64,000 nt of DNA from an uncultured candidatus Porisulfidus sp. (GTDB lineage Bacteria > Pseudomonadota > Gammaproteobacteria > Poriferisulfidales > Poriferisulfidaceae): positions 1,385,888-1,449,887 of the forward strand of contig OY288106.1 of the NCBI GenBank assembly GCA_958431155.1, in the 5' to 3' direction. The position numbers and the translations under genes were made by a program. Within the stretch, counting starts at the first letter, position 1, and every line of letters begins with the position of its first letter. Shown here one piece after another: positions 28,450-43,598 of the stretch. The notes beneath the pieces are model-generated. The model worked only from the letters and a program-made list of their open reading frames with translations. It was not told the DNA's origin and did not search any database.

Positions 28450-28480
28450 GAGACATCTGTAAACACAAATCCCCTATAAT
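28450..28480 (+). promoter_or_regulatory. Candidate promoter of the 5-FCL / Ftr / FolD unit
   Basis: Perfect -10 TATAAT at 28475-28480 in an AT-rich pocket after thiO; the closest -35 is GAGACA at 28450-28455 with a long 19-base spacer. It would give a leader of about 55 bases before the cyclo-ligase ATG. Confidence 0.5.
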
Positions 28481-28541: not shown

Positions 28542-29174
28542 ATGACTTTGTCACAAGAAGAACTCGACGCAATCATGGAGCGAAAAGGCAAAATGCGCCG
28601 CGAGGCGTACGACCGCCGAAACGCTCAGGAAAACAAGGACGAAATCAGCGCCCAAGCAGTTGCACGCCTGATGGCCCTGGAGGAGTACCAGAACGCGAAT
28701 ACCATCATGTGGTACATCGACTGCCGTTCCGAGACCCGCACCAAGCCCCAGTTGCTCGAAGAAGTGGCCAAGGGCGAGAAAAAGATCGTCGTGCCGTACT
28801 GCACGGTGGACGAGAAGGGCGACAACAAGCTCGGCCTCTGGCACATGGAGAGCCTGGAGGAGATGGTGGTCGGCAAGTGGAACATCCTCGAGCCGCCCAA
28901 GGAGATGTGGGGCAACCCGGACAAGGAGCCGCCGGCGGAAGAACTGGATATGGTGATGGTCCCCGGCGTCGGGTTCGACCGCGGTGGGGGACGCATGGGC
29001 AATGGCCAGGGTTACTACGACCGCCTGCTTGAGCGGGTCCGCCCGGATTGCGCGCTGGTGGCGTTGTGCTACGAGTCGCAGTTGTTCGACGAGATCCTGG
29101 TCGCCCCGCACGACGTGTACATGGACTACGTGGTGACCGAAGACGCGGTGTACAAGGGCCGCGGGCGGGACTGA
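28542..29174 (+). CDS. 5-formyltetrahydrofolate cyclo-ligase family protein
   Basis: 210 residues from ATG 28542 (GGAGAG upstream). The family core is present: RREAYDRR at the N-terminus, MWYIDCRSETRTKPQL, KKIVVPYC, and the glycine-rich ATP motif MGNGQGYYDRLL. Known members use ATP to turn 5-formyl-H4F into 5,10-methenyl-H4F. The sequence is clearly diverged from E. coli YgfA. It is three bases before the Ftr gene and probably co-transcribed with it and FolD. A related N5-formyl pterin substrate is possible. Confidence 0.85.
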   Translation: MTLSQEELDAIMERKGKMRREAYDRRNAQENKDEISAQAVARLMALEEYQNANTIMWYIDCRSETRTKPQLLEEVAKGEKKIVVPYCTVDEKGDNKLGLWHMESLEEMVVGKWNILEPPKEMWGNPDKEPPAEELDMVMVPGVGFDRGGGRMGNGQGYYDRLLERVRPDCALVALCYESQLFDEILVAPHDVYMDYVVTEDAVYKGRGRD

Positions 29175-29177
29175 GCC

Positions 29178-30104
29178 ATGCCGGCACGGATCGACGACAC
29201 CTACGCGGAAGCATTCCGCAGCCTTTACACCGAGTTCCTGGTCACGGCCCGGGACCAGACTTGGGTCAAGCACGCGGTGGATGCCGCGGTCGGGAATGCC
29301 GCCAGCACCATCCTGTGCGACTGCGAAGCCGGTCTGGACCGCTTCGTCGGGCCGGGCGGGGACGAGTCCTTCGAGACCCCGGACGGTCGCCCTGGCGCCA
29401 TCGTGCAACTGCACGTACCCCGTTTCTGGAAGGACCGGGTGGAAAAGCTGGAACGGGCTGCGCTGGTCCGGATCAGCCAGAACGTGCTGACCTGCCCAAC
29501 CGCTTCCTGCTTCAACCTGTTGGACACCGAAGAGTACTATCAGATGGGCCGGAAAGTGGCCTATTTCGGCAACGGCAAGCAGTGCCGCATCGAGCGTTTC
29601 GGAAGGAAGATGTGGTGGGTGCCGATCCTGGGCGGCGAATTCGTGCTGGATCGCCGGCTAGGCTACGCTGATGGCTTGATGGGCGGCAACCTGTGGTTCT
29701 TCGGCAGCGACACCGATTCCGCGCTTGAAGCCGCCATGAAGAGTGTCGAGGAGATCGCCAAGACCCCGGGCGTGGTGATGTGCTTCCCGGGAGGAATCGC
29801 GGGATCCGGTTCCAAGCCCGGCAGCAACTACGAGTTCTCGATCGCCAGCACCTACGAGAAGTACTGTCCCATGCTGCAGGACGACCCGGAAGTCGAGAAA
29901 GGCCTCCCTGAGGGCGTCAATTCTGTCATGGAAATCATCATCAACGGGCGCAACCTGGAGACCATCATCCAAGCCACGCGCGCGGCCATCGAGGCCTCCC
30001 GCGACACCGAGGGCCTGATCATGATTTCGGCCGGCAACTACGGCGGCCGCCTTGGCAAGAACCTGATCTATCTCGATCCGGACAAGCAACCCCCCATTGA
30101 GTGA
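29178..30104 (+). CDS. ftr: Formylmethanofuran:tetrahydromethanopterin formyltransferase (Ftr/FhcD family)
   Basis: 308 residues. Family landmarks are DDTYAEAF, ETPDGRPGAI, TCPTASCFN, a GGEF-containing strand, CFPGGIAGSGSKPGS, YEKYCPMLQDD, VMEIIINGRNLE and ISAGNYGGRLG. Ftr moves a formyl group between methanofuran-type carrier and N5 of H4MPT in methanogens and methylotrophs. It is diverged from Methylobacterium FhcD as I recall that sequence, and is not beside fhcA, fhcB or fhcC here. Instead it sits between a 5-FCL gene and folD, overlapping the latter. It could be a paralogue with a changed acceptor. Confidence 0.88.
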   Translation: MPARIDDTYAEAFRSLYTEFLVTARDQTWVKHAVDAAVGNAASTILCDCEAGLDRFVGPGGDESFETPDGRPGAIVQLHVPRFWKDRVEKLERAALVRISQNVLTCPTASCFNLLDTEEYYQMGRKVAYFGNGKQCRIERFGRKMWWVPILGGEFVLDRRLGYADGLMGGNLWFFGSDTDSALEAAMKSVEEIAKTPGVVMCFPGGIAGSGSKPGSNYEFSIASTYEKYCPMLQDDPEVEKGLPEGVNSVMEIIINGRNLETIIQATRAAIEASRDTEGLIMISAGNYGGRLGKNLIYLDPDKQPPIE

Positions 30105-30960
30105 GCCCGGCCAGTTGATCGATGGCAATGCGGTGGCGCGCGGAATCCGCGCGCAACTGGCCGAACATCTGGATTCCGCAGCCCCGGTGACCCTGGCGAC
30201 CGTGCTGGTCGGCGAGGATCCGGCAAGCCAGCTGTACATCTCCCGTAAGATCAAGGAAGCCGGCGAAGCCGGGATTATTTCCCGGCACCAGACGTTGCCG
30301 GCGGACATCGCGCAGGACGATCTCGTCGAGGCAATCCGCATTCTGGCGCACGACTCCTCCGTGCACGGGATTCTGGTGCAGATACCGCTGCCGTCGGCAT
30401 TGGATGCCGCCGAAGTACTGGCGGCCATTCCCCCGGAGAAGGACGTGGATGGCCTGACGGAAACCAACTTGGGCCGCCTCGCGGCCGGGCTTCCCGGACT
30501 TCGCCCCTGCACGCCGTTCGGCGTGATGGAGTTGCTTCGGCACTACCGTATCCCGATCTCCGGAGCGAGCGCGCTGGTGATCGGACGTTCCCGGCTGGTG
30601 GGCATTCCGATGGCCCTGATGCTGGCCGAGAAGGGGGTGGATGCGACCGTGAGTGTGGCCCACTCGCGCACCCGGGACCTGCAGAAACTTGCCCGCGAGT
30701 CGGACATCCTGGTCGCGGCGACCGGCAGCCCCGGGATGGTTACGGCGGATTACGTCAAGCCGGGCGCGGCGGTATTCGACGTCGGGGTCAGTCGCGTGGA
30801 CGGAAAGATCCAGGGCGACGTGCGATTCGAGGAAGTGCGGGAGGTCGCGGGGTTCGTAACCCCGATGCCCGGTGGCACCGGACCGATGACGGTGGCCTGC
30901 CTGCTGCTCAACACGGTGCGGGCGGCGGCGATGCGGGGAGTGGTTGCGCCTTTGCCGTAG
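30097..30960 (+). CDS. folD: Methylene-H4F dehydrogenase / methenyl-H4F cyclohydrolase
   Basis: 287 residues from TTG 30097, which lies inside the ftr end (eight-base overlap, no RBS; translational coupling likely). Catalytic YISRK motif, ILVQIPLP, KDVDGLTETNLGRL, VIGRSRLVGIPMALML (NADP site) and FVTPMPGGTGPMTVACLLLNT are all seen. It interconverts methylene-, methenyl- and 10-formyl-H4F. With mtdA 12 kb away, the genome encodes two ways to handle methylene-H4F. Confidence 0.94.
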   Translation: MSEPGQLIDGNAVARGIRAQLAEHLDSAAPVTLATVLVGEDPASQLYISRKIKEAGEAGIISRHQTLPADIAQDDLVEAIRILAHDSSVHGILVQIPLPSALDAAEVLAAIPPEKDVDGLTETNLGRLAAGLPGLRPCTPFGVMELLRHYRIPISGASALVIGRSRLVGIPMALMLAEKGVDATVSVAHSRTRDLQKLARESDILVAATGSPGMVTADYVKPGAAVFDVGVSRVDGKIQGDVRFEEVREVAGFVTPMPGGTGPMTVACLLLNTVRAAAMRGVVAPLP

Positions 30961-30970
30961 CGTATGCGGC

Positions 30971-31411
30971 TTAACCCGCATCCCAAGGGTTGACGATCTC
31001 TACCCCCAGGTTTTCGAAATCCTTCACGTTCCGGGTGACCAGCGCAAAGTTGTTTGCTACCGCCGTCCCTGCGATCAAGGCATCGCTTAGTGCGAGTGAA
31101 TGGCCTGAGCGCTTCGCTTTGGCCCGGAGAAAAGCCGCCACCTCCATCTCTTCTTTCCCGATTGGCAGAATGCGGCCCTTGAACAGGTCCATGAGGAAAC
31201 CGATCTGGATTTTCAGGGTGTTTTGGCGGTGCCCTTGCGGGAGAAGGTGAACCCCATACTCCAACTCGCCGCGTACGACGACGGATGTCCAGAATTTTTT
31301 CCGATCGGTCAGGAAGGCGATAGCCGAAGCGGCCGGATCGTGTTTTGTGAATTCGGAAAACACGTTGGTGTCGAGAAGACAATCAGACACGTCACTCCGT
31401 AGCGTAGTCAA
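30971..31411 (-). CDS. PIN-domain toxin (VapC/FitB-like ribonuclease)
   Basis: 146 residues. The PIN fold is shown by LLDTNVFSEF (first acidic residue), a mid-protein GELEYGVHLL helix, LSDALIAGTA and LVTRNVKDFENLGVEIVNPW. Such toxins cleave RNA when freed from antitoxin. It overlaps the upstream antitoxin by 20 bases; a GTG just after the antitoxin stop (VSDCLLDTN) may be the true start. Confidence 0.88.
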   Translation of the reverse strand: MTTLRSDVSDCLLDTNVFSEFTKHDPAASAIAFLTDRKKFWTSVVVRGELEYGVHLLPQGHRQNTLKIQIGFLMDLFKGRILPIGKEEMEVAAFLRAKAKRSGHSLALSDALIAGTAVANNFALVTRNVKDFENLGVEIVNPWDAG

Positions 31412-31697
31412 TGAATGGAATGGGGCGCTCCCTTTCCTCTTTTCTTGAAGGAATCTCCAGGCCGTCCTCAGGCAGATCTTCCGGATTGGGCCTGAATTTC
31501 ATAATCATCTCGCCAAGCGACATGCCTGGAGTCTCTGCGGCTTCCCAGGCTTCCCGCGACATGATGACGAAGGTCTTTTTCACCCCGACCTGCTGCGGCC
31601 CCTCCTCTTCGGCCAGCCTCAGGATCTCGGACAGGCGGGCCTTGGCCTCGGCAATCGGCCAGATTTTCTCGGATAGTTCGGCAGTAGGATCCCGCAT
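31392..31697 (-). CDS. Phd/YefM-type antitoxin
   Basis: 101 residues from ATG 31697, chosen for GGAGGG five bases upstream; ATG 31709 is an alternative. The N-terminus (IWPIAEAKARLSEILRLAEEEGPQQV, shortened here to its key part AEAKARLSEILRLAEEEGPQ) is the Phd dimerisation and DNA-binding region. The C-terminal tail is acidic and Pro-rich, suitable for wrapping the toxin. It forms an operon with the PIN gene. Confidence 0.85.
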   Translation of the reverse strand: MRDPTAELSEKIWPIAEAKARLSEILRLAEEEGPQQVGVKKTFVIMSREAWEAAETPGMSLGEMIMKFRPNPEDLPEDGLEIPSRKEERERPIPFIDYATE

Positions 31698-31713
31698 GAT
31701 TCCCTCCATAGCA

Positions 31714-31737
31714 ACTAGTTCAATCTAGTCTATCATA
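31714..31737 (-). promoter_or_regulatory. Operator and -10 of the antitoxin-toxin operon
   Basis: An inverted repeat ACTAG/CTAGT (31714-31718 and 31725-31729, six-base spacer) lies just upstream of the antitoxin, next to a minus-strand -10 TATGAT (31737-31732). A dyad between -10 and start fits autorepression by a Phd-type antitoxin. Confidence 0.5.
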
Positions 31738-31807
31738 TTTTCCCTGATATTTGGCCTCGCGCGGCCATATTGCGCGATTCCGAATGCTATACTGAAAAAG
31801 TAAGCTT

Positions 31808-31882
31808 GCTCCCTTCGTCTAGCGGTCAGGACATCGCCCTCTCAAGGCGGGAACAGGGGTTCGATTCCCCTAGGGAGCGCCA
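31808..31882 (+). tRNA. tRNA-Glu (anticodon CTC)
   Basis: Perfect acceptor stem GCTCCCT / AGGGAGC, anticodon stem CGCC/GGCG with loop CTCTCAA giving CTC (glutamate), T-arm AGGGGTTCGATTCCCCT, encoded CCA at 31880-31882. Confidence 0.94.
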
Positions 31883-32073
31883 TTTCACGTCTCTTCGCAC
31901 CAAACCTCTCCGGCTTCTCTGCACAGTTGTAGGGTGCGGGCTTTTTGTGCGGCTGAGATCCTCGATTCTTGCAGCCTAAAAGGCCGCATGAACCACAAAA
32001 CAAGCCCTGTGGCCGAAATTCGCTAGAATGATCTTCCTAAAGTCAATTGTGTTTCTGCCGACAGACTTGCAGC

Positions 32074-34431
32074 ATGGAAAAAAGCTTTAGCAACGCTTCG
32101 ATGGATTCCGAATGGCGGGCATCCGGTTCGGCATTTTGCCTTTCTAAATTTTTACGAGTCTCCGCCATGGCGCTGGCCACGGCCATTCTCGCCTCGGCCT
32201 GCGGAGGTGGGGGTGGAGGGGGAGGCGGTGTCGGAAGTGGCGATGACGCTTCCCCCCCTGAGGATGCAAACCAGGCCCGGGTGGAAACAATCGCCAGCGG
32301 GTATCGCAGCAACATCGAATTCTCCAAACAAGGAGGGTTGCGCATAACCCAGGCCGACCGGGCATACGCGCATCTGGAACTCGCGCTCGGGCCCGGTTTC
32401 AGCGCGGGGGATGGCGTGACCATCGGCATCGTCGACACTGGCATCGACCTCGAGCACCCGGCCTTTGTCATCGATCCCGATAATCCGGACAGGGACAGAA
32501 CAATCACCCGGGAACTCCTGCCGGACGCCTTAATTGAAGATGGAAGCGAATTTTCCCATGGCACGGTGGTCGCAGGTGTTGCCGCCGGAGGCCGGAATAT
32601 TGGCCAGCCGGAAAGCGCCCACGGTGTTGCCTGGAATGCCAACCTTGCGGTTTTTGCCATTCCACTGGGGACCAAAGGACCAGATGACGAATATAGTCCC
32701 ACGGACCTGACCAACTCTTCACAACAGAAGGACGAGTTGAATCAATGGTTCAGCACGCCGCTTGCGGCGGGCGTCGATATCCTGAACTTGAGTTTCAGCC
32801 TTCCCGGAACGATCAAAGACTACACCGAAACAACCCTCCGCTCCTCCCTTGGGAACGTTATCCAAACGATGATTCAAGCGGGAGTTTCGGACAAGACTAT
32901 TCTGGTTTGGGCGGCCGGCAATTACCATGGTGATCCGTGCACGGCAGGGGTGGGGTGTGTAGGTTCCAAAGTCAACGCCACCTCCCCTTCGTTCCTCGCT
33001 GGACTTCCGGAGAAGATCACAGAATTGCAAGGCCACGTCATCGCGGTCGTGTCGGTAGGCCAGAGTGGCGAAATCTCGTCTTTCTCGAACCGTTGCGGAG
33101 ATGCAGCCGAATGGTGCCTTGCCGCTCCTGGGGAAAATATTCTGGCACCCCACTTTGGCCCCAGAGGCGGAAGGGTGGTACGAGACTATGACAGATTTAA
33201 TGGCACATCTGTCGCCGCGCCGATGGTGTCGGGCGGGCTCGCGCTGATGAAGCAGCTCTTTCGTGGCCAGCTGCCGAATACGAAGCTGGTCGAGCGGCTT
33301 TTCGAGACGGCCAACAAAAGTGGCAGATATGCCAACCGAAGCATTTACGGTGAGGGCCTGATGGATCTCGGTGCTGCGACTGCGCCCAGGGGTCAGGCCA
33401 CCCTGACGCTGGGCAGTAGAGTCGGAGACCCTGGCGGCAGCCTGAAAACGTCCAGCATTGCGCTCGGCAATGCGTTTGGCGACGGGCTGACGCAGTCGCT
33501 TGCAGGAACGGAAATCGCCGCCTTCGATTCTCTGGGAGCTCCGTTCTGGTTTGATCTTGCCTCTTTTGCGGTTGCTACCGACGAGTTGTCCATGGCGAAA
33601 CGACTCAAAGGTTTTATGGCGCCGACACCGGCAAGGCCGAAAATCGGGGGATACCGGACTGCTTTTGCGTCGCCCTTTGCGAAAGCGGGCCCTGACCCCT
33701 GGCGGCTTGGCCTGCTGGAGACCCCCGCGGGTGCCCTGGGAGGACACCTCGGGCTTGCCAAATACGCGAACACCTTCACCTATGCAGGATGGAAGGATTT
33801 GGCGGCCACGGCATTTTCGACGGAAGGGCTGTCCTGGCAGGCCCCGACATCGGGAGCCGTGCTGTCCTGGCAGCCGTCCGAAGCCTGGGCCGGCTTGCGT
33901 GCCGGCTGGCTGATGGAGCGGGAAAGCCTGCTTGGGAGTTCGGCGAAAGGCGCCTTCGGCAGCCTGTCTTCCGATTCTGCGTTCATCGGGTTCAATGCGG
34001 ATACATCGGTAGACGGTTGGCACCTTGGCGCGAACGCCGAGGCGGGGTTCGCGACCGTAAAGCCGCGTAGCGGACTGATTACGGATGTCTCCTCCGTTGC
34101 CACGGGCGCGTTCGCGGTTCATGCGGCGCGACCATTCTCCGGTGACAGGTTGCTGCAGTTTTCCGTGTCGCAGCCGCTGCGTGTCGAGCATGGTCGCGCC
34201 ACGCTGTCCGTGCCTGTGGGCCGCACCAAGGGCGGCGACGTCCTACGCCGGTCGGTCGCGGCGGAGATTGCGCCGACAGGCCGACAGATTGATGTCGCGG
34301 CGCATTGGCGCCAGCCGTTGACTCCGGCGGGCGAGTTGCGCTTGGGGGCGGTTTGGACTCACGATCCGGGACATAACGCAGAAGCAAGTTCGGATTTGTC
34401 CTTGATGGCGGGTTGGCGCTCTGCTTTCTGA
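32074..34431 (+). CDS. Subtilisin-like (S8) autotransporter lipoprotein
   Basis: 785 residues from ATG 32074 (ATG 32101 also possible). The signal region LRVSAMALATAILASAC ends at a likely lipidated Cys followed by nine Gly, as in Neisseria NalP. The S8 triad is complete: GIVDTGIDLEHP (Asp), SEFSHGTVVAGVAAG (His), FNGTSVAAPMVSGG (Ser). A linker follows, and the last 200-250 residues alternate polar and hydrophobic strands and end in Phe (WRSAF), like a beta-barrel translocator. Probably a surface protease that may process other exported proteins. A -10-like TAGAAT lies at 32024-32029. Confidence 0.85.
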   Translation: MEKSFSNASMDSEWRASGSAFCLSKFLRVSAMALATAILASACGGGGGGGGGVGSGDDASPPEDANQARVETIASGYRSNIEFSKQGGLRITQADRAYAHLELALGPGFSAGDGVTIGIVDTGIDLEHPAFVIDPDNPDRDRTITRELLPDALIEDGSEFSHGTVVAGVAAGGRNIGQPESAHGVAWNANLAVFAIPLGTKGPDDEYSPTDLTNSSQQKDELNQWFSTPLAAGVDILNLSFSLPGTIKDYTETTLRSSLGNVIQTMIQAGVSDKTILVWAAGNYHGDPCTAGVGCVGSKVNATSPSFLAGLPEKITELQGHVIAVVSVGQSGEISSFSNRCGDAAEWCLAAPGENILAPHFGPRGGRVVRDYDRFNGTSVAAPMVSGGLALMKQLFRGQLPNTKLVERLFETANKSGRYANRSIYGEGLMDLGAATAPRGQATLTLGSRVGDPGGSLKTSSIALGNAFGDGLTQSLAGTEIAAFDSLGAPFWFDLASFAVATDELSMAKRLKGFMAPTPARPKIGGYRTAFASPFAKAGPDPWRLGLLETPAGALGGHLGLAKYANTFTYAGWKDLAATAFSTEGLSWQAPTSGAVLSWQPSEAWAGLRAGWLMERESLLGSSAKGAFGSLSSDSAFIGFNADTSVDGWHLGANAEAGFATVKPRSGLITDVSSVATGAFAVHAARPFSGDRLLQFSVSQPLRVEHGRATLSVPVGRTKGGDVLRRSVAAEIAPTGRQIDVAAHWRQPLTPAGELRLGAVWTHDPGHNAEASSDLSLMAGWRSAF

Positions 34432-34659: not shown

Positions 34660-35937
34660 ATGCCCGCTGAAAAACTTGTTTTCCCTGGCCGCAACTATCT
34701 CTACGCACCAGGGCCCACGCATATTCCGGTCGCTGTTCAGAACGCCATGATCGTGCCGATGGAGGACCATCGGGCGCCCGACTTCCCCAAGCTGGTCAAG
34801 CCTCTGCTGCGCGACCTCAACAAGATCTTCAAGACCCGCACCGGCAAGAGCTTCATCTTTCCCGCTACCGGCACGGCCGGCTGGGAAGTGGCGCTGACCA
34901 ATACCCTGTCGCCGGGTGACCGCGTCCTGACCGCCCGTTTCGGGCAATTTTCCCACTTGTGGGCGGATCTGGCCCAGCGTATGGGTTTGGACGTGGAACT
35001 GGTGCAAGTGCCTTGGGGCGAAGGCGTGCCGCTCAAGCAGTTCGAGCAGATCCTGAAGAAGGACAAGGAACACAAGATCAAGGCGGTACTGGCCTGCCAT
35101 AACGAGACCGCGACCGGCGTCACCAGTAACATCGCGGGCCTGCGCAGGGCCATGGACCGGGCCAAGCACCCGGCGATGCTGATGGTCGACGGCGTCAGTT
35201 CCATCGCCAGCATCGACTTCCGCATGGACGACTGGAAGGTCGACGTGGCCGTGTCCGGTTCGCAGAAAGGTTTCATGCTGCCGGCCGGCATGGCGCTGGT
35301 CTGTTTCTCGCGCCGGGCGCTGGCGGCGGCAAAGAACGCCGGCTGCAAGCGCTGCTTCCTGGACATAGCCGACCATATCGCGACCAACAAGGATGGCTTC
35401 TTCCCGTACACCCCCTCGGCACCGATGCTGCGTGGCCTGCGCGCCTCGATCGACCTGCTGCTCGGGGAAGGCCTGGAGAATGTGTTCCAGCGCCACCACC
35501 GGCTCGCCGAAGGCGTGCGCCGGGCGATTTTAGGATGGGGTTTGGACCTGTTCGCGGCCGAACCGAAGTGGTACTCCGACACGGTGTCCGCCATCAAGGT
35601 TCCGAAAAACGTGAATGCTGCCGAAGTGATTCATATTGCCTACCACCGCTACAACATCTCGCTGGGCGCCGGCCTGTCCGAGGTTGCCGGCAAGGTGTTC
35701 CGCATTGGCCACTTGGGCGACAACAACGAAGTCCGCATGATGGCGGCCCTCGGTGGCGTGGAGATGGCGATGCGCGATGCTGGCATGAAGGTCCGCCCGG
35801 GCTCGGGCGTGGCGAAGGCGGTCGAGTACTACTGCGGCACCGCGAAGGGCAAGAAGAAGATCCCCGCGTTCGGCGCCGCCAAGGGCCCTCGCGAGACCGC
35901 CGTAAAAAAGGCGGCCCCGAAGCGCAAGAAGAAGTGA
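34660..35937 (+). CDS. sga: Serine-glyoxylate aminotransferase
   Basis: 425 residues, class V aminotransferase. The family N-terminus FPGRNYLYAPGPTHIPVAVQ, the TGTAGWEVALTN segment and the PLP lysine in VSGSQKGFMLPAG are clear. It converts serine and glyoxylate to hydroxypyruvate and glycine, the entry step of the serine cycle. A basic 25-residue tail (GAAKGPRETAVKKAAPKRKK) is an extension I cannot explain. AAAAGGA precedes the ATG. First gene of the serine-cycle operon. Confidence 0.94.
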   Translation: MPAEKLVFPGRNYLYAPGPTHIPVAVQNAMIVPMEDHRAPDFPKLVKPLLRDLNKIFKTRTGKSFIFPATGTAGWEVALTNTLSPGDRVLTARFGQFSHLWADLAQRMGLDVELVQVPWGEGVPLKQFEQILKKDKEHKIKAVLACHNETATGVTSNIAGLRRAMDRAKHPAMLMVDGVSSIASIDFRMDDWKVDVAVSGSQKGFMLPAGMALVCFSRRALAAAKNAGCKRCFLDIADHIATNKDGFFPYTPSAPMLRGLRASIDLLLGEGLENVFQRHHRLAEGVRRAILGWGLDLFAAEPKWYSDTVSAIKVPKNVNAAEVIHIAYHRYNISLGAGLSEVAGKVFRIGHLGDNNEVRMMAALGGVEMAMRDAGMKVRPGSGVAKAVEYYCGTAKGKKKIPAFGAAKGPRETAVKKAAPKRKKK

Positions 35938-35947
35938 GGAATCCTGA

Positions 35948-36889
35948 ATGAGCCACACTCAAGCGACCCCCGCGCCGACCCGTCTGCAGCGTAGCGAACT
36001 GGCAGTCCCGGGCTCCAACCCGGCACTGTTTGAAAAAGCACTGAACTCCGCGGTCGACTACGTCTTCCTGGACCTGGAAGACGCGGTTGCGCCGGGCGAC
36101 AAGGAGCAGGCCCGGGTCAATGTCATCCAGGCCTTGCGCGACTTGGACTGGCGAGGCGCAGGAAAGACCATCTCGGTGCGCATCAACGGGCTGGACACTC
36201 ACTACATGTACCGCGACGTGGTGGACTTGATGGAACAGGCGGGCGACCGCCTGGACACGATCCTGATTCCGAAAGTGGGCGTGCCGTCGGACGTCTATAT
36301 GGTCGAGGCGATGGTGAACCAGATTGAGCAGGGAAAAGGTTTTGAGACCCGGGTCGGCTTGGAAGCCCTGATCGAGACGGCTCTCGGCATGGCCAATGTC
36401 GAAGCGATCGCCGCCTACGGCGGGCGCATGGAGGCCCTGCATTTCGGGGTGGCGGACTACGCCGCATCCAATCGTGCGCGCACGGTCAACATCGGCGGAC
36501 TCAATCCCGACTACCCGGGAGACCAGTGGCACTTTGCCCTGTCTCGCATGACGGTGGCCTGCCGGGCGTACGGCTTGCGGGCGATCGACGGACCGTTCGG
36601 CGACTTCAAGGACCCGGACGGCTATCGGGCGGCAGCACGCCGCGCCGCTGCACTCGGGATCGAGGGCAAGTGGGCGATCCATCCGTCCCAGATCGAACTG
36701 GCCAATGAAATCTTCTCCCCGCCGGAAGCGGAAGTGGACCGGGCCCGGCGAATCCTTCAGGAACTGGAGATCGCGGCGGCGGAAGGCCGGGGCGCAGCTG
36801 CCGTCGACGGCAAGATGATCGATGCGGCTTCGGCAAGGATGGCCGAGAACGTGGTGCGTTTGGCGGAAGCAATCGCCGCACGCAGCTAA
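35948..36889 (+). CDS. mcl: Malyl-CoA lyase
   Basis: 313 residues, HpcH/HpaI-CitE superfamily. Motifs are RSELAVPGSNPALFEKAL, VFLDLEDAVAPGDKEQAR (metal-binding acidic residues), LETALG-like segment ALIETALGMANVEAIA and GKWAIHPSQIELAN. It splits malyl-CoA into acetyl-CoA and glyoxylate. GAGGA lies before ATG 35948, eleven bases after sga. Confidence 0.93.
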   Translation: MSHTQATPAPTRLQRSELAVPGSNPALFEKALNSAVDYVFLDLEDAVAPGDKEQARVNVIQALRDLDWRGAGKTISVRINGLDTHYMYRDVVDLMEQAGDRLDTILIPKVGVPSDVYMVEAMVNQIEQGKGFETRVGLEALIETALGMANVEAIAAYGGRMEALHFGVADYAASNRARTVNIGGLNPDYPGDQWHFALSRMTVACRAYGLRAIDGPFGDFKDPDGYRAAARRAAALGIEGKWAIHPSQIELANEIFSPPEAEVDRARRILQELEIAAAEGRGAAAVDGKMIDAASARMAENVVRLAEAIAARS

Positions 36890-36905
36890 AACGAGGACAA
36901 GCAAC

Positions 36906-38078
36906 ATGCACATACACGAATACCAGGCCAAGGAAGTTCTGGCCAACTATGGAATCCAGACACAGCCGGGTACGCTGGTGTACAGCCCCGACCAGGCTGT
37001 GGCTGCCTACAACTCTCAAGGGTCCGCGGTATGCGCGGTCAAGGCGCAGATCCATTCCGGCGCCCGCGGCAAGGCCGGGGGCATCCGGTTGTGCCGGAGC
37101 AACGACGAGGTGCGCCGCGCTGCGGACGAGATGTTGGGCGAGAAGCTGGTGACCCACCAGACCGGCTCGAGCGGCAAACTGGTTCAGAAGCTGTACGTCG
37201 AGGCTGGGGTCGATATCGACCGCGAAATCTACCTGGCGTTCGTGCTGGATCGGGCCAAGCAGCGGCATGTTGCCGTGGCTTCCGCCGAGGGGGGCATGGA
37301 AATCGAGCAGCTGGCCCAGGAGAAACCGGAAAGCATCCTGCGCATCAGCATCGACCCGGCATCCGGCATGCGTCACTTCCAGGCGCAGGAACTGGCCTTC
37401 GGGCTGGGATTGGGGGCCGACCTGGTCAAACAGGCGGTGTCCACGTTCCGCGGCCTGTACAAGGCGATGATCCAACTGGACGCCAGCATGGTCGAGATCA
37501 ATCCGCTGGTGGTGACCCGGGACCGGCGCTTGATCGCCCTGGACGCCAAGATGGAATTCGACGACAACGCACTGTTCCGTCATCGCGAGGTGGCCGAACT
37601 GCGCGACATGTCGCAGGAGGATCCGCGCGAGACCGCGGCCTCCGACCACGACCTCAGCTACGTCGGCCTGGACGGCGACATCGGCTGCATGATCAATGGC
37701 GCCGGGCTGGCCATGGCCACCATGGACATGATCAAGCTGTCCGGCGGCGAGCCGGCCAACTTCCTCGACATCGGCGGCGGCGCGTCGCCGGAGCGGGTGG
37801 CCAAGGCGTTCGAACTGGTGCTGCAGGACGGCAGCGTCAAAGCCATGCTGGTCAACATCTTCGCGGGAATCAATCGCTGCGACTGGATCGCCGAAGGCCT
37901 GATCAAGGCGCTCGGCGTGGTCGATCTCGGCGTGCCCCTGGTGGTGCGCCTATCCGGCACCAATGTGGAGGAAGGCACCCAGATGCTGGTCGACAGCGGG
38001 TTGCCCATCATCATGGCCGATACGCTGGCCGATGCCGCCCAAAAAGTGGTGGCGGCCGCACAAGGACAGGGAGACTGA
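36906..38078 (+). CDS. mtkA: Malate-CoA ligase (malate thiokinase) beta subunit
   Basis: 390 residues from ATG 36906 (CGAGGACAAG upstream). It is a SucC-type ATP-grasp protein: MHIHEYQAKEVL, AQIHSGARGKAGGI, MVEINPLVV, and LDIGGGASPERVAKAFELV. Between mcl and the alpha subunit, malate rather than succinate is the expected substrate. The pair makes malyl-CoA from malate, CoA and ATP. Confidence 0.93.
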   Translation: MHIHEYQAKEVLANYGIQTQPGTLVYSPDQAVAAYNSQGSAVCAVKAQIHSGARGKAGGIRLCRSNDEVRRAADEMLGEKLVTHQTGSSGKLVQKLYVEAGVDIDREIYLAFVLDRAKQRHVAVASAEGGMEIEQLAQEKPESILRISIDPASGMRHFQAQELAFGLGLGADLVKQAVSTFRGLYKAMIQLDASMVEINPLVVTRDRRLIALDAKMEFDDNALFRHREVAELRDMSQEDPRETAASDHDLSYVGLDGDIGCMINGAGLAMATMDMIKLSGGEPANFLDIGGGASPERVAKAFELVLQDGSVKAMLVNIFAGINRCDWIAEGLIKALGVVDLGVPLVVRLSGTNVEEGTQMLVDSGLPIIMADTLADAAQKVVAAAQGQGD

Positions 38079-38081
38079 CAC

Positions 38082-38969
38082 ATGTCGATTCTGATCAACA
38101 AAGACACCAAGATCCTGATCCAGGGCTTCACCGGTCGGATCGGAACCTTTCACGCCAAGGAGATGCTGGAATACGGCAGCAACGTGGTCGGGGGCGTCAC
38201 GCCGGGGAAAGGCGGACAGGCGCACCTGAACCTGCCGGTGTTCAACACCATCAAGGAAGCGGTAGATGCAACTGGCGCAACGGCCAGCATCGTGTTCGTG
38301 CCCGCAGCCGCAGCCGCCGACTCGATCATGGAAGCCGCCGACGGGGGCATCAAGTATTGCGTGGCAATTACCGACGGCATCCCGGCCCAGGACATGATCC
38401 GCGTCAAGCGCTTCATGCTGCGCTACCCGAAAGAACGCAAGATGATCCTGACCGGGCCCAACTGCGCGGGCTCCATCACGCCGGGTGAAGCGATGCTCGG
38501 AATCATGCCGGGCCATATCTACGAGCCGGGTCGGGTTGGCGTGGTCGGACGTTCCGGCACGCTGGGCTACGAAGCCGCCTCGCAGATGAAGGCCGAAGGC
38601 ATCGGCATCTCGACCAGCATCGGAATCGGTGGCGACCCGATCAACGGGAGCTCGCACCGCGACATCATGGAACTGTTCGAGCAGGACCCCGATACGGACG
38701 CGGTCATGATCATCGGCGAGATCGGGGGTCCACAGGAAGCGGAAGCGGCGGAGTTCGCGCGCGACCACATGAGCAAGCCGGTCGCGGCCTACGTGGCAGG
38801 CCTGACCGCGCCGAAAGGACGCCGCATGGGCCATGCCGGGGCCATCATTTCCGGGAAAGGCGAGAGCGCTTCGGAGAAAGTCGAGATTTTCAAGGAAGCC
38901 GGGGTAGCGATCGTGCCGAATCCCTCTGAATTCGGCTCCACCATGAAGGACGTTGTGTCGAGGCTCTAA
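38082..38969 (+). CDS. mtkB: Malate-CoA ligase (malate thiokinase) alpha subunit
   Basis: 295 residues, SucD type. Rossmann-like CoA-binding N-terminus (ILIQGFTGRIGTFHAKEML), VGVVGRSGTLGYEA, and the phosphohistidine in RRMGHAGAIISG. Pairs with MtkA three bases upstream. The order mtkA-mtkB within the serine-cycle operon separates it from TCA-cycle sucCD. Confidence 0.93.
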   Translation: MSILINKDTKILIQGFTGRIGTFHAKEMLEYGSNVVGGVTPGKGGQAHLNLPVFNTIKEAVDATGATASIVFVPAAAAADSIMEAADGGIKYCVAITDGIPAQDMIRVKRFMLRYPKERKMILTGPNCAGSITPGEAMLGIMPGHIYEPGRVGVVGRSGTLGYEAASQMKAEGIGISTSIGIGGDPINGSSHRDIMELFEQDPDTDAVMIIGEIGGPQEAEAAEFARDHMSKPVAAYVAGLTAPKGRRMGHAGAIISGKGESASEKVEIFKEAGVAIVPNPSEFGSTMKDVVSRL

Positions 38970-38978
38970 GGAGGCCGC

Positions 38979-39950
38979 ATGTCAAAGCCCAAAGTCATTG
39001 CCACGCGCCGCTGGCCGGAGCCAGTCGAGGCGCACCTGTTCGAACACTACGACTTCACGCTGAACGAGGACGACCACCCGATGAGCGTGGGCGAGCTGCA
39101 TCAGGCTCTGCGCGAGTATGATGCGGTCTGCCCGACCGTGACCGATCCGATTACCGCCGAAGTGCTCGGCATCGACGGCATCCGCGCAAAGATCCTGGGC
39201 AATTTTGGCGTTGGCTTCAACCATATCGACCTGGACGCGGCCAAGCAGGCCAGTCTCGTCGTGACCAACACCCCGGAAGTCCTGACCGACTGCACCGCGG
39301 ACATCGCCATGAACCTGATGCTGACCGCCGCTCGCCGCACCGGCGAAGGCGAACGGCACCTGCGCGCCGGAGAGTGGACTGGCTGGCGCCCGACCCACAT
39401 GCTGGCGACCAAGGTCACCGGCAAGACCCTGGGCTGCATCGGTTTCGGCCGTATCGCCCAGGCCATGGCCCAGCGCTGCCACTTTGGTTTCGGCATGAAG
39501 GTGATCTTCCACGACCCGTACCCGCCGAAGCCGGAAGTCGTGGAGAAGTTCCAGGCGGTCGCCTGCAATTCGGTCGAGGAAGTGCTGGAGCAGGCCGACT
39601 TTGTGTCCCTGCATTGCCCGGGTGGCGAATCGACCTACCACCTGCTCAACGAGGAGCGCCTGGCCCGGATGAAGCCTTCCGCCTTCCTGATCAATTCCGC
39701 ACGGGGCGACATCATTGACAACCAGGCCCTGATCGCGGCACTGAAAAACGGCACCATCGCAGGTGCCGGGCTCGACGTCTTCGAAGGCGAGCCCAAACTG
39801 GATCCCGGATTCCTGGGCATTGAGAACGCGGTTCTGCTGCCGCACCTCGGCAGCGCCTCGACCGAGACCCGGATCGCCATGGGCATGCGGGTGGTCGAGA
39901 ACCTGGAGCTGTTTTTCTCCGACCAGGAGCCGCGCGACCGCGTCGCCTGA
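38979..39950 (+). CDS. hprA: Hydroxypyruvate reductase (D-2-hydroxyacid dehydrogenase)
   Basis: 323 residues. Substrate-binding NFGVGFNHIDL, nucleotide fold LGCIGFGRIAQAMA, catalytic Arg in NSARGDIID, Glu in DVFEGEPKLD and His in LLPHLGSAS. It reduces hydroxypyruvate to glycerate in the serine cycle and may also act on glyoxylate. A strong AAGGAGG sits before the ATG. Confidence 0.92.
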   Translation: MSKPKVIATRRWPEPVEAHLFEHYDFTLNEDDHPMSVGELHQALREYDAVCPTVTDPITAEVLGIDGIRAKILGNFGVGFNHIDLDAAKQASLVVTNTPEVLTDCTADIAMNLMLTAARRTGEGERHLRAGEWTGWRPTHMLATKVTGKTLGCIGFGRIAQAMAQRCHFGFGMKVIFHDPYPPKPEVVEKFQAVACNSVEEVLEQADFVSLHCPGGESTYHLLNEERLARMKPSAFLINSARGDIIDNQALIAALKNGTIAGAGLDVFEGEPKLDPGFLGIENAVLLPHLGSASTETRIAMGMRVVENLELFFSDQEPRDRVA

Positions 39951-39979
39951 GCGCCTGCTCCGGGACCGGCCCCGCCTGC

Positions 39980-42682
39980 ATGCCGTCCGACGTCGCTCCT
40001 TCTGCCGATCGCCCGGAAGACCGTATACGCGCCGAGACCCTGCGTTATACCGAGAGCATGGTCCAGCGGCTGGGAGGGCTGCTGCTGGAAGTCATCCGTC
40101 GCCGAACCCCGGAAATCACTGAACTCCTTGAGAACCGGGGACAAATAACCCCGGAGACCCGGCTGCGGGTTCTTCAAGCCTACGGGATCGGTTTCCAACT
40201 GTTCAACATCGCCGAGCAAAACGCGGCGATCCGGCATCGCCGGGCGATCGAGGGCGAACTCGGGCCACAACAGGTGCCCGGGTCTTTTTCGGCTGCACTC
40301 GCGCATGCCCGCTCCGTCGGGCTTGATGCCGAGGCCGTTCGCGACCGTCTGCGGGACGCCCAGGTGGTGCCGGTGTTGACGGCACATCCGACCGAGGCCA
40401 AGCGGGTGACGGTGCTGGAAATCCATCGTCGCATCTACGTGTTGCTCAAGGAACTGGAAGAGACCCGCTACACCGAGCGGGAGCGCCAGCGCATGATCAA
40501 CGTCATCCGCGACGAGATCGACCTGTTGTGGATGACCGGAGAGATCCGCCTGACCAAGCCGACCGTGACCGAGGAGGTCGCGTGGATCCTGCACTTTTTC
40601 GATGAATCGCTTTATCGCGGCGCACGCGACCTGTTCTGGCAGTTGTCGCAGGCGCTGGAGGAACACTACCCCGACGCGCAGTTCGAGACGCCGCCGCTGC
40701 TCCACTTCGGCTGCTGGGTCGGCGGTGACCGCGACGGCAATCCCCACGTGACTCCCGAAGTGACCCGGAAGGCCCTTGACGGTTACCGGGAGGCCGCGTT
40801 GTCGCACCTGTACCGGCAAATAACCGAGGCCCGGAGCCGGCTGTCCATTGCCGCGCACGCGGTGGCCGTGCCGGCGGAATTCCTGTCGCGCCTTGATGTC
40901 ATGCTGGGCGGGCATGCGGACGCGGACGCATTGCGCGCGCGCAATCCCCAGGAAGTATTCCGGCAATACTTGAACCTTCTGATGCGCCGCCTTGCGGCGA
41001 CCCAGAGTGAAGCCCCGGAAGGCTATGCGAATGCGACCGAGTTGGTGGAAGACCTGAAGGCCCTGGAAAAAACCCTGCGCGAGACCGATTGCGGCTCCAT
41101 CGCCGACTTGCTGGTGCGCCCGCTGCGCCTGGAAGCGCAGGTGTTCGGCTTTCATACCGTGAGCCTGGACATTCGGGAGAACAGCACCGTCATCAACGAT
41201 ACCCTGGCAATTCTGTATCGCCAACTGGAAGGGGATGAGCCGCCGGAATCGGGGAGCGAGGCATGGCTGGAATGGCTGAAGCGGCGGCTTGCCGAGCCCC
41301 TGGAGGACATCCCCGAATTGGAGCTTGAGGATGAAATGGCGCAACGCACCCTGGAGTTGTTCCGGTTGCTCGGCGAGGTCGCGGACCGACGCGGGATGGA
41401 GCCGTTCGGAGCCTTTATCCTGAGCATGACGCACACGCAGGCGGACTTGCTGGGGGTGTACCTCCTGGCCAAGTACGGCGGGCTGTTTTCCGACCTCAAG
41501 AACTGCGAGACCTGCCGCCTGCCGGTGGTGCCGCTGCTGGAGACGATCGAGGATCTACGCCGTGGACCCGGGTTGCTGCGCGAGTTGCTGGACGTCCCGC
41601 TGGTACGCCGCAGCGTCCGGGCCGGCCCCGGGGTGCTGGAGGTGATGGTGGGTTACTCGGATTCCAACAAGGACGGCGGGTTCCTGTGCTCCAACCACGA
41701 GGTGTCGCTGGCCCAGTCCCGAATGCACCGGGTGGGCGAGGAGCGCGGCGTGTCGGTGGTATTCTTCCATGGTCGCGGCGGGTCGTCGTCGCGTGGCGGG
41801 ATGCCGGCCGGCCGCGCGATTGCCGCCCAGCCGCCGGGCACCATCGGGGGACGGATGCGGCTGACCGAGCAGGGCGAAGTGGTGTCGGGAAAATACGCGA
41901 ACCGCGGTTACGCGGAGACGCAACTGGAGATCTTGGCGGCCAGCGTGCTGGAACACTCCCTGCCCGGCAACGAGAACCGGCACCCCGGGTTCGAGGAGGC
42001 CATGGAGGCCCTGTCGCAACTGTCGTACACCGCCTACCGGAAATTGGCCGACCACCCCGGCCTGGTCATGTTCTATCAGGATGCCTCGCCGGTCGAAGAA
42101 TTGGCCTTGCTCAAGATCGGCTCCCGGCCGATGCGCCGCTTCGGCGCAAACACCTTGGATGACTTGCGCGCCATTCCCTGGGTGTTCGCCTGGACGCAGA
42201 ACCGCATGATGGTCCCGGGCTGGTATGGCGTGGGCGATGCCATCACGGAGTTTATCCGGGTGCGGGGCGAGGCGGGCGAAAGGTTGCTGCGCAAGATGTT
42301 CGAGGAGCACCGCCTGTTCCGGCTGGTGATCGACGAGGTGGAGAAGACTCTGTACCAGGTCCAACTCGACATTGCGCGGGACTACGCCGCGCTGGTCCCG
42401 GATCCCGAGGTGGGAGCCGAGATCTTTTCGATGATTGAGCAGGAATACGAGCGGACCCGCGAGGTCGTGCTTCGGGTGTCCGGCAGCGAGGCTCTGTGCG
42501 ACCGCTTCGTGATGTTCAGCGACCGCCTGTCGCGGCGGCTGCCGATCATCGACCGGGTCAGTCGCGAGCAGGTCGAACTGATCAAACTGTGCCGGGGCAA
42601 GGAGCGTCCGGAGACGCTGGATCTGGTTCCGCTGCTGTTGTCGATCAACTGCGTGGCGGCCGGGCTGGGCTGGACCGGTTGA
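39980..42682 (+). CDS. ppc: Phosphoenolpyruvate carboxylase
   Basis: 900 residues. Catalytic His in TAHPTEAKR, GGDRDGNP, VMVGYSDSNKDGG, FFHGRGGSSSRGG and the C-terminal LLLSINCVAAGLGWTG. It carboxylates PEP to oxaloacetate, the CO2-fixing step of the serine cycle. No clear RBS; the start is placed by the MPSD...PEDRIRAETLRY N-terminus. It follows hprA by 29 bases, inside the same operon. Confidence 0.94.
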   Translation: MPSDVAPSADRPEDRIRAETLRYTESMVQRLGGLLLEVIRRRTPEITELLENRGQITPETRLRVLQAYGIGFQLFNIAEQNAAIRHRRAIEGELGPQQVPGSFSAALAHARSVGLDAEAVRDRLRDAQVVPVLTAHPTEAKRVTVLEIHRRIYVLLKELEETRYTERERQRMINVIRDEIDLLWMTGEIRLTKPTVTEEVAWILHFFDESLYRGARDLFWQLSQALEEHYPDAQFETPPLLHFGCWVGGDRDGNPHVTPEVTRKALDGYREAALSHLYRQITEARSRLSIAAHAVAVPAEFLSRLDVMLGGHADADALRARNPQEVFRQYLNLLMRRLAATQSEAPEGYANATELVEDLKALEKTLRETDCGSIADLLVRPLRLEAQVFGFHTVSLDIRENSTVINDTLAILYRQLEGDEPPESGSEAWLEWLKRRLAEPLEDIPELELEDEMAQRTLELFRLLGEVADRRGMEPFGAFILSMTHTQADLLGVYLLAKYGGLFSDLKNCETCRLPVVPLLETIEDLRRGPGLLRELLDVPLVRRSVRAGPGVLEVMVGYSDSNKDGGFLCSNHEVSLAQSRMHRVGEERGVSVVFFHGRGGSSSRGGMPAGRAIAAQPPGTIGGRMRLTEQGEVVSGKYANRGYAETQLEILAASVLEHSLPGNENRHPGFEEAMEALSQLSYTAYRKLADHPGLVMFYQDASPVEELALLKIGSRPMRRFGANTLDDLRAIPWVFAWTQNRMMVPGWYGVGDAITEFIRVRGEAGERLLRKMFEEHRLFRLVIDEVEKTLYQVQLDIARDYAALVPDPEVGAEIFSMIEQEYERTREVVLRVSGSEALCDRFVMFSDRLSRRLPIIDRVSREQVELIKLCRGKERPETLDLVPLLLSINCVAAGLGWTG

Positions 42683-42737: not shown

Positions 42738-43598
42738 ATGAAGAAACTGCTCTTTCATCTAGACACGGACGCCCAGCCCTCCGCTTTCGACCAGGTGGTC
42801 GCTTACGACGGGGGAGCGGATGCCGTCCTGGCCTACGGCGGAGTGACTGCCGACAATTGCTTCCCGCTGGTGGAAGGCGCGATCTTTACCCGTGCGCCGA
42901 AGAACAAGCGCTATACCGCAATCCTGATCGGCGGCAGCGACCTGGCCCAGACCGAAGCCCTCATGGAAACCGTGAAGTCTCAGTTTTTCGAAGGCTTCCG
43001 GGTGTCGCTGATGATGGACGCTAACGGTTGCAATACGACGGCGGCGGCGGCGGTCGCGATGCTGGGCGCCGCGCATCCGCTCGAAGGTGCAAGTGCAACG
43101 GTGCTGGCGGGCACCGGGCCGGTCGGGCAGCGTGCCGCGGTCATGCTGGCGCAGTCGGGAGCCAGGGTGCGCCTGACTTCGCGCAAACTGGAGCGTGCGC
43201 AACAGACGTGCGAGGGGATTTCGGAACGCTATGGCGTGGCGGTGGAGCCTATGGCGGCATCGGATGCGGCCGGGACGACCGACGCGATCGAAGGTGCGGC
43301 TATCGTCTTGGCCACGGGTCAGGCCGGCGTGCAGTTGCTGCCGACCGAAATCTGGCAGGCGTCTTCCAGCTTGCGCGCGGCCGGGGATGTGGGAACCTGC
43401 CCGCCCTTAGGTGTGGAAGGGATCGACATGGCCGATGGCGGCCGAGAAGTTGATGGAATCTCCCTGTTCGGCGGGTTGGCCTTCGGAGCCCTGAAGCTCC
43501 GCACTCACCGCGAGGCGATCTCGCGGATGTTCGAGAGCAACGATCAGGTGTGGGATGCGGAAGAGGCGCTGGCCCTGGCCCGCGAACTTTACGACTGA
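42738..43598 (+). CDS. mtdA: NADP-dependent methylene-H4F/H4MPT dehydrogenase, MtdA type
   Basis: 286 residues from ATG 42738 behind GGAAGGA. The N-terminus KKLLFHLDTDAQPSAFD...AYDGGAD matches MtdA rather than MtdB; the Rossmann part has TVLAGTGPVGQRAAVMLA. Methylotroph MtdA oxidises or reduces methylene-pterin with NADP. TTAAAAT just upstream might be a secondary -10. Last gene of the serine-cycle cluster; its 3' end overlaps the convergent gene by ten bases. Confidence 0.92.
   Translation: MKKLLFHLDTDAQPSAFDQVVAYDGGADAVLAYGGVTADNCFPLVEGAIFTRAPKNKRYTAILIGGSDLAQTEALMETVKSQFFEGFRVSLMMDANGCNTTAAAAVAMLGAAHPLEGASATVLAGTGPVGQRAAVMLAQSGARVRLTSRKLERAQQTCEGISERYGVAVEPMAASDAAGTTDAIEGAAIVLATGQAGVQLLPTEIWQASSSLRAAGDVGTCPPLGVEGIDMADGGREVDGISLFGGLAFGALKLRTHREAISRMFESNDQVWDAEEALALARELYD

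Follow-up and report, generated by a model that had tools for sequence, protein, structure and literature searches.

How can a bacterium supply one-carbon (C1) units to a serine cycle when the enzymes that usually charge folate from formate are missing from its genome? This question is raised by a stretch of 64,000 nucleotides (G000:C1:1385888-1449887, hereafter the window) from the genome of an uncultured Candidatus Porisulfidus sp. (G000; 1.59 Mb, one contig, 98.33% complete), whose closest named relative is the sponge-derived Candidatus Porisulfidus sp. TsSOB (Ftr 97% identical). Its plus strand carries three closely packed genes, encoding a 5-formyltetrahydrofolate cyclo-ligase (5-FCL; 28542-29174, ATG start, 210 amino acids), a diverged Ftr that we call Ftr2 (29178-30104, ATG, 308 amino acids) and the methylene-tetrahydrofolate dehydrogenase/methenyl-tetrahydrofolate cyclohydrolase FolD (30097-30960, TTG, 287 amino acids). 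Open reading frame (ORF) coordinates and family searches agree with the arrangement given in a preliminary description of this DNA, i.e. a gap of 3 bases between the first two genes and an overlap of 8 bases between the last two. From gene content and conservation, we consider it likely that the 5-FCL/Ftr2 pair, together with FolD or an MtdA-like dehydrogenase, gives C1 units formate-free access to the folate pool and to the serine cycle. The more specific proposal, which we hold with moderate confidence, is that Ftr2 is the first formyl-methanofuran:tetrahydrofolate (formyl-MFR:H4F) N5-formyltransferase and that, with 5-FCL, it joins the methanofuran and folate C1 pools without formate.

In model methylotrophs the paths to energy and to biomass part at formate, from which the formate-H4F ligase FtfL is the known assimilatory gate to folate. 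Folate is usually fed by 10-formyl-H4F, and 5-formyl-H4F is normally seen as a storage or inhibitory form. Transfer of the Ftr type gives an N5-formyl pterin, and this is the kind of substrate that 5-FCL uses, since the latter converts N5-formyl-H4F, with ATP, into methenyl-H4F, from which FolD or MtdA makes methylene-H4F; this match counts in favour of a bridge. In the route that we propose, formaldehyde would be bound to tetrahydromethanopterin (H4MPT) by Fae and oxidised by Mtd and Mch, after which canonical FhcD would move the C1 unit to methanofuran, giving formyl-MFR (or formyl-methylofuran). Part of the formyl-MFR would be oxidised for energy by the FhcABC/Fwd complex, and Ftr2 would pass the remaining formyl groups to N5 of H4F. 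The resulting 5-formyl-H4F would be converted irreversibly by 5-FCL, at the expense of one ATP, to methenyl-H4F, which FolD (or MtdA) would reduce to methylene-H4F for serine hydroxymethyltransferase (SHMT). This would cost as much ATP as the usual detour, in which hydrolysis yields formate for FtfL, yet make free formate, FtfL and Fch dispensable. What we infer here is that H4F is the acceptor, that formyl-MFR is the donor and that the flow runs in this direction. In principle, the same path could run from CO2 through formyl-MFR and methylene-H4F to serine, given a metal-dependent dehydrogenase and ferredoxin, but this is much less likely.

A first line of evidence is that the pair appears to replace the usual genes. 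Neither G000 nor its genus has a match to PF01268 (FtfL) or PF04961 (Fch). An even sample of the class, comprising 370 gammaproteobacterial genomes, almost all with a completeness of 90% or more, gave an FTR domain match in 50 genomes, 10 of which have Ftr2; the latter is split from the other FTR matches by its score (135-150 vs 183-218 bits). If a serine-cycle organism is defined by the presence of Ftr/FhcD and of MtkA over its cut-off, the sample contains 34 of them, 25 without and 9 with Ftr2. FtfL was found in 24 of the 25 genomes without Ftr2 and in 2 of the 9 Ftr2 genomes (Fisher p = 5e-5); for Fch the counts are 21 of the 25 and none of the 9 (p = 1.4e-5). Collapsed to families, the p-values are 0.009 for FtfL and 0.004 for Fch, and those at both levels ignore phylogeny. 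FtfL, Ftr2 or both are present in 33 of the 34 genomes. Because FtfL and Fch anti-correlate with Ftr2, the unit behaves as their replacement. The role of stand-in for formate-H4F ligase, put forward in the preliminary description together with an expected absence of ftfL, is thus supported at the genome level, where every testable prediction turned out favourably. Could the absence of FtfL and Fch be due to genome reduction or to the incompleteness of metagenome-assembled genomes (MAGs), and the association to shared ancestry? Many Ftr2 genomes are indeed small symbiont or marine MAGs, and the families bearing Ftr2 are few. We nevertheless find such an artefact most improbable: FtfL is missing from 90%-complete genomes of several families and from three single-contig genomes (G000, G111 and G237), the family-level test still favours the association, and equally small genomes without Ftr2, those of family f130 (about 1.0-1.1 Mb), retain FtfL, so that genome size does not explain its loss.

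A second line of evidence is the conservation of the pair, which we surveyed in 80 Ftr2 loci of named genomes and in the loci of the sampled genomes. In Gammaproteobacteria, all 35 loci with room to tell (a few of which share one genome) have 5-FCL as the immediate upstream neighbour of Ftr2. Among planctomycete loci, 5-FCL adjoins Ftr2 in 32 and does not in 31, many of the latter being from Gemmataceae; when planctomycete genomes with an unlinked 5-FCL were tested, all 12 of these enzymes fell in the clade of the linked ones. The co-occurrence of all three genes across genomes, as proposed initially, holds in part, in that two phyla share the conserved 5-FCL/Ftr2 pair but FolD is not constant. 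It is the third gene in most gammaproteobacterial loci, but the unit lacks it at six loci (L043, L047, L048, L052, L211 and L212), for which reason we rejected it as an essential member. Moreover, in three planctomycete loci (L082, L226 and L075) the pair stands alone, its neighbours being oppositely oriented or seemingly unrelated, as judged by eye from ORF starts. The core unit is therefore 5-FCL plus Ftr2, and FolD and the serine cycle are its gammaproteobacterial context. In four gammaproteobacterial families the pair heads the serine-cycle operon, where it stands in for the mtdA-fch/ftfL functions of Methylobacterium extorquens.

What kind of protein is Ftr2? Its two domains score above the gathering thresholds (PF01913, 135.3 bits; PF02741, 160.9 bits), and with TIGR03119 (one_C_fhcD) it scores 283.1 bits, under the cut-off of 292.6, compared with 402.8 for canonical FhcD, the product of the second Ftr gene of G000, at ~1.206 Mb. 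Its identity to solved Ftr/FhcD proteins is ~35-42%, and that of the linked 5-FCL to solved 5-FCLs is 23-30%, so that the initial qualification of both as diverged was apt. A maximum-likelihood tree of 71 rows places all Ftr2 sequences on one branch (support 100/100, length 1.06), opposite FhcD and archaeal Ftr together (100/100); Ftr2 is thus a distinct clade, as the comparison suggested at the outset was meant to decide, and its stem exceeds the split between archaeal Ftr and FhcD. Gammaproteobacterial Ftr2 is nested within the planctomycete diversity, which suggests that the pair was transferred between phyla. Three loci labelled Planctomycetaceae or Pirellulaceae (L051, L053 and L054) have an Ftr2 that groups with the gammaproteobacterial sequences, through recent transfer or a binning error. 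The AlphaFold2 model of Ftr2 (pLDDT 87.1) has the Ftr fold, with Z-scores of 31.5-33.8 to four Ftr/FhcD structures (33.8 to 1m5s, 32.3 to 1ftr and 31.5 to 6s6y_D), the next best match being at 8.3; in this comparison no match was better than Ftr for Ftr2, nor better than 5-FCL for its partner. Glu245, the catalytic residue of the Methanopyrus kandleri Ftr, corresponds to E252 of the window Ftr2; it does not vary among Ftr2 sequences and is conserved in the FhcD/archaeal set as well, and 61 alignment columns are invariant in both groups. Ftr2 also shows fixed differences of its own, e.g. S15, Q77, H79 and N102, and an insertion around positions 81-85 with basic residues. We read the conserved active site, the long stem and the slow later evolution as the pattern of a shifted, strongly selected substrate.

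These data bear on a more conventional explanation, which treats Ftr2 as a second H4MPT formyltransferase of the ordinary kind and 5-FCL as a housekeeping enzyme, with C1 units reaching folate by the spontaneous reaction of formaldehyde with H4F or by glycine cleavage. Ftr2 does retain the Ftr catalytic core; 5-formyl-H4F is a by-product of SHMT, so that 5-FCL and FolD would be plausible helpers of a serine cycle; and the linked 5-FCL is the sole copy in these genomes, G000 included. Yet if Ftr2 were a redundant paralog, neither a stem longer than the archaeal Ftr/FhcD split nor its coincidence with the loss of FtfL and Fch would be expected. Planctomycetes, furthermore, have the pair with no serine-cycle operon around it. 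For these reasons we regard this explanation as unlikely.

The linked 5-FCL matches PF01812 and exceeds the cut-off of TIGR02727 (130 bits vs 84.9), and its model resembles Bacillus anthracis 2jcb_A (Z 21.8) and human MTHFS 3hy6 (Z 20.1). Residues K15, R19, E64, R151, G153/G155/G157, Y158, Y159 and D160 (GxGxGYYD) are invariant in 20 homologs; their catalytic and substrate-binding roles are presumably those described for human and Mycoplasma MTHFS. The 5-FCL partners of Ftr2, whether adjacent to it or not, fall into a single clade, well separated from those of two other Gammaproteobacteria and from the solved structures, with moderate support (92/96) and long branches. This distance leaves room for a different substrate, an option named in the preliminary description: Ftr2 would make 5-formyl-H4MPT and 5-FCL would close it, with ATP, to methenyl-H4MPT, an irreversible counterpart of Mch driving a reductive flow through H4MPT. 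Such a route is very doubtful, given that the folate-site glutamate E64 and the ATP-site residues are kept, that Mch is already there and that FhcD already makes formyl-H4MPT; in addition, it supplies no folate and therefore would not explain the loss of FtfL and Fch. Another possibility is that Ftr2 works in reverse, returning the formyl group of 5-formyl-H4F to methanofuran for oxidation, with 5-FCL and Ftr2 as alternative exits of 5-formyl-H4F. Ftr reactions are reversible, and planctomycetes, in which a serine cycle seems to be missing, might conceivably get rid of folate C1 units in this way. However, the ATP-driven, irreversible 5-FCL would compete with disposal, and in Gammaproteobacteria both the operon that the unit heads and the genes that it replaces are assimilatory, all of which makes flow in this direction hardly probable.

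Several observations weigh against a formate-free bridge as the function of the pair. One serine-cycle genome, G173, has neither FtfL nor Ftr2, and two genomes of one gammaproteobacterial genus, G145 and G256, have both. In Planctomycetota the association goes in the same direction but is weak (FtfL in 1 of 12 genomes with Ftr2 vs 13 of 35 without, p = 0.08), and none of six planctomycetes tested had MtkA over its cut-off, so these bacteria seem to have no serine cycle to feed. The planctomycete sequences in the 5-FCL tree all come from genomes with Ftr2. As the sole copy in the genome, the linked 5-FCL must also serve housekeeping. Finally, the Fhc complex of M. extorquens carries methylofuran as a prosthetic group (Hemmann et al. 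2019, as cited in PMC11656701); a separate Ftr2 might then struggle to reach the bound cofactor and may need docking to the complex or a free pool. As for G145 and G256 themselves (L211 and L212), 5-FCL/Ftr2 heads the serine-cycle operon without FolD, FtfL is present and Fch is absent; this is possibly an intermediate state or a separate use of external formate.

Elsewhere, G000 carries mch and fae, and an operon fwdD-fhcB-fhcA-fhcD-fhcC followed by genes for a ferredoxin and a Pyr_redox_2 reductase (L119 5747-12661; G000:C1 about 1,202,700-1,209,700). The window itself lacks fhcA, fhcB and fhcC, as had been noticed; they lie ~180 kb away (G000:C1 about 1,204,500-1,209,700). A canonical fhcABCD cluster accompanied by ftfL and fch had been named among the findings that would speak against the route; what the genome has is the fwdD-fhcBADC operon without ftfL or fch, and the objection does not apply. 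FhcB of G000 is FwdB-like (370 bits to 5t5i_B vs 47 to M. extorquens FhcB; motifs CTFCGCVCDD and SVCHGPS), suggesting that the complex may be a genuine Mo/W formyl-MFR dehydrogenase in a gammaproteobacterium. Similar operons occur at L122, L124-L127, L203 and L207. The presence of fwdD-fhcBADC operons in several Gammaproteobacteria updates PMC5020050 (2016), which describes Planctomycetes and Proteobacteria as lacking fwdD. We also considered that Ftr2 might be tied to the metal-dependent, Fwd-type dehydrogenase, i.e. occur where no formate is made, and rejected this on account of mismatches both ways: in six Ftr2 genomes (G007, G111, G145, G175, G237 and G256) FhcB shares only 22-32% identity with the Fwd type and no fwdD was found beside it, and the Fwd type occurs without Ftr2 in four others (G173, G187, G027 and G030).

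Downstream of the trio, after ~3.7 kb, begins a nearly complete serine-cycle run, all on the plus strand; its serine-glyoxylate aminotransferase, hydroxypyruvate reductase, phosphoenolpyruvate carboxylase, MtkA, MtkB and malyl-CoA lyase genes all lie within 34660-42682, several of them scoring under equivalog cut-offs. The first gene, which follows the unit in gammaproteobacterial loci, encodes a serine-glyoxylate aminotransferase-like (BhcA-like) class V aminotransferase (34660-35937; NF045640, 583 bits, under the cut-off of 650). It is followed by a conserved neighbour, a malyl-CoA lyase-type HpcH/HpaI C-C lyase (35948-36889; PF03328, 140 bits), by the malate-CoA ligase beta subunit MtkA (36906-38078; NF010647, 643.5 bits, above the equivalog cut-off of 604) and alpha subunit MtkB, of the succinate-CoA ligase alpha family (38082-38969; NF004230, 424.8 bits), and by a D-2-hydroxyacid dehydrogenase, probably a hydroxypyruvate/glyoxylate reductase, whose operon position is conserved (38979-39950; best NCBIfam match NF009714, 289 bits, under the cut-off of 455). 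Phosphoenolpyruvate carboxylase (39980-42682; NF000584, 722.9 bits, under the cut-off of 815) and an MtdA-like methylene-H4F/H4MPT dehydrogenase (42738-43598; PF09176; 273 bits to the M. extorquens MtdA structures 6tge/1lu9/6tlk) come last. FolD matches PF00763 (113.5 bits) and PF02882 (201.2 bits), both over cut-off. Between FolD and the run, positions 30971-34431 hold a minus-strand PIN-domain/Phd-type gene pair and a 794-amino-acid subtilase-domain protein. This region is a variable insertion site: the gap between FolD and the aminotransferase is 3.7 kb at L031, 1.2 kb at L034 and ~0.4 kb in Candidatus Porisulfidus at L032, and since it can be that short, the insert is local and the trio is part of the serine-cycle cluster. 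Ahead of the unit, the TATAAT reported initially is present (28475-28480), but a sigma-70 scan does not pick it out as a promoter, so that this part of the description is weak. At its end, the window runs into a very long ORF (61979-64000, continuing in L129 1-8332) with a ketosynthase-like N-terminus, resembling the first part of a modular polyketide synthase; the genome that carries it, from a lineage of sponge symbionts, measures 1.6 Mb.

If the proposal is right, it would add to metabolism a reaction linking the archaeal-type and bacterial-type C1 systems, and 5-formyl-H4F would become a main-line route into folate. It would also account for marine and sponge-associated gammaproteobacterial clades in which a serine cycle operates with neither FtfL nor Fch, give the Ftr2 clade a role in Planctomycetota, and offer a formate-free module for synthetic methylotrophy. 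Our reading of the genes makes it probable that the 5-FCL/Ftr2 unit is a new variant of C1 assimilation. In the open-access literature we found no description of a methanofuran-to-folate transfer, of this Ftr clade or of serine-cycle organisms lacking FtfL, a negative that, given this scope and unrelated uses of 'ftr2' among the matches, is only weak evidence of novelty. Published work on M. extorquens describes a branching of the pathways at formate (PMC8879981; also the reference list of PMC12542740).

How does the unit compare with known systems? With archaeal Ftr and bacterial FhcD, Ftr2 shares the Pfam domains, the fold, the catalytic glutamate and the 61 invariant columns, but it forms a separate long-stem clade with the 81-85 insertion and clade-specific fixed residues; unlike FhcD, it is not clustered with fhcABC, falls just under the fhcD equivalog cut-off and, in Gammaproteobacteria, always adjoins 5-FCL. 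The G000 dehydrogenase resembles Mo/W Fwd/Fmd enzymes in its FwdB-like FhcB and its fwdD gene, and differs in being in Gammaproteobacteria, where the Fwd type is also found in genomes without Ftr2, and in the adjoining ferredoxin and Pyr_redox_2 reductase genes. Like other 5-FCLs (MTHFS, YgfA), the linked copy exceeds the TIGR02727 cut-off, has the same fold (Z about 20) and conserves the catalytic residues; in contrast to them, it has a clade of its own and a formyltransferase as operon partner, and it would be a main-line assimilation enzyme instead of a salvage one. A functional parallel would be the FtfL-Fch-MtdA module of Methylobacterium: both would spend one ATP in supplying the serine cycle with methylene-H4F, and an MtdA-like gene is present here too. 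But the window genome has neither FtfL nor Fch, and in it C1 units would travel as 5-formyl-H4F rather than as free formate and 10-formyl-H4F.

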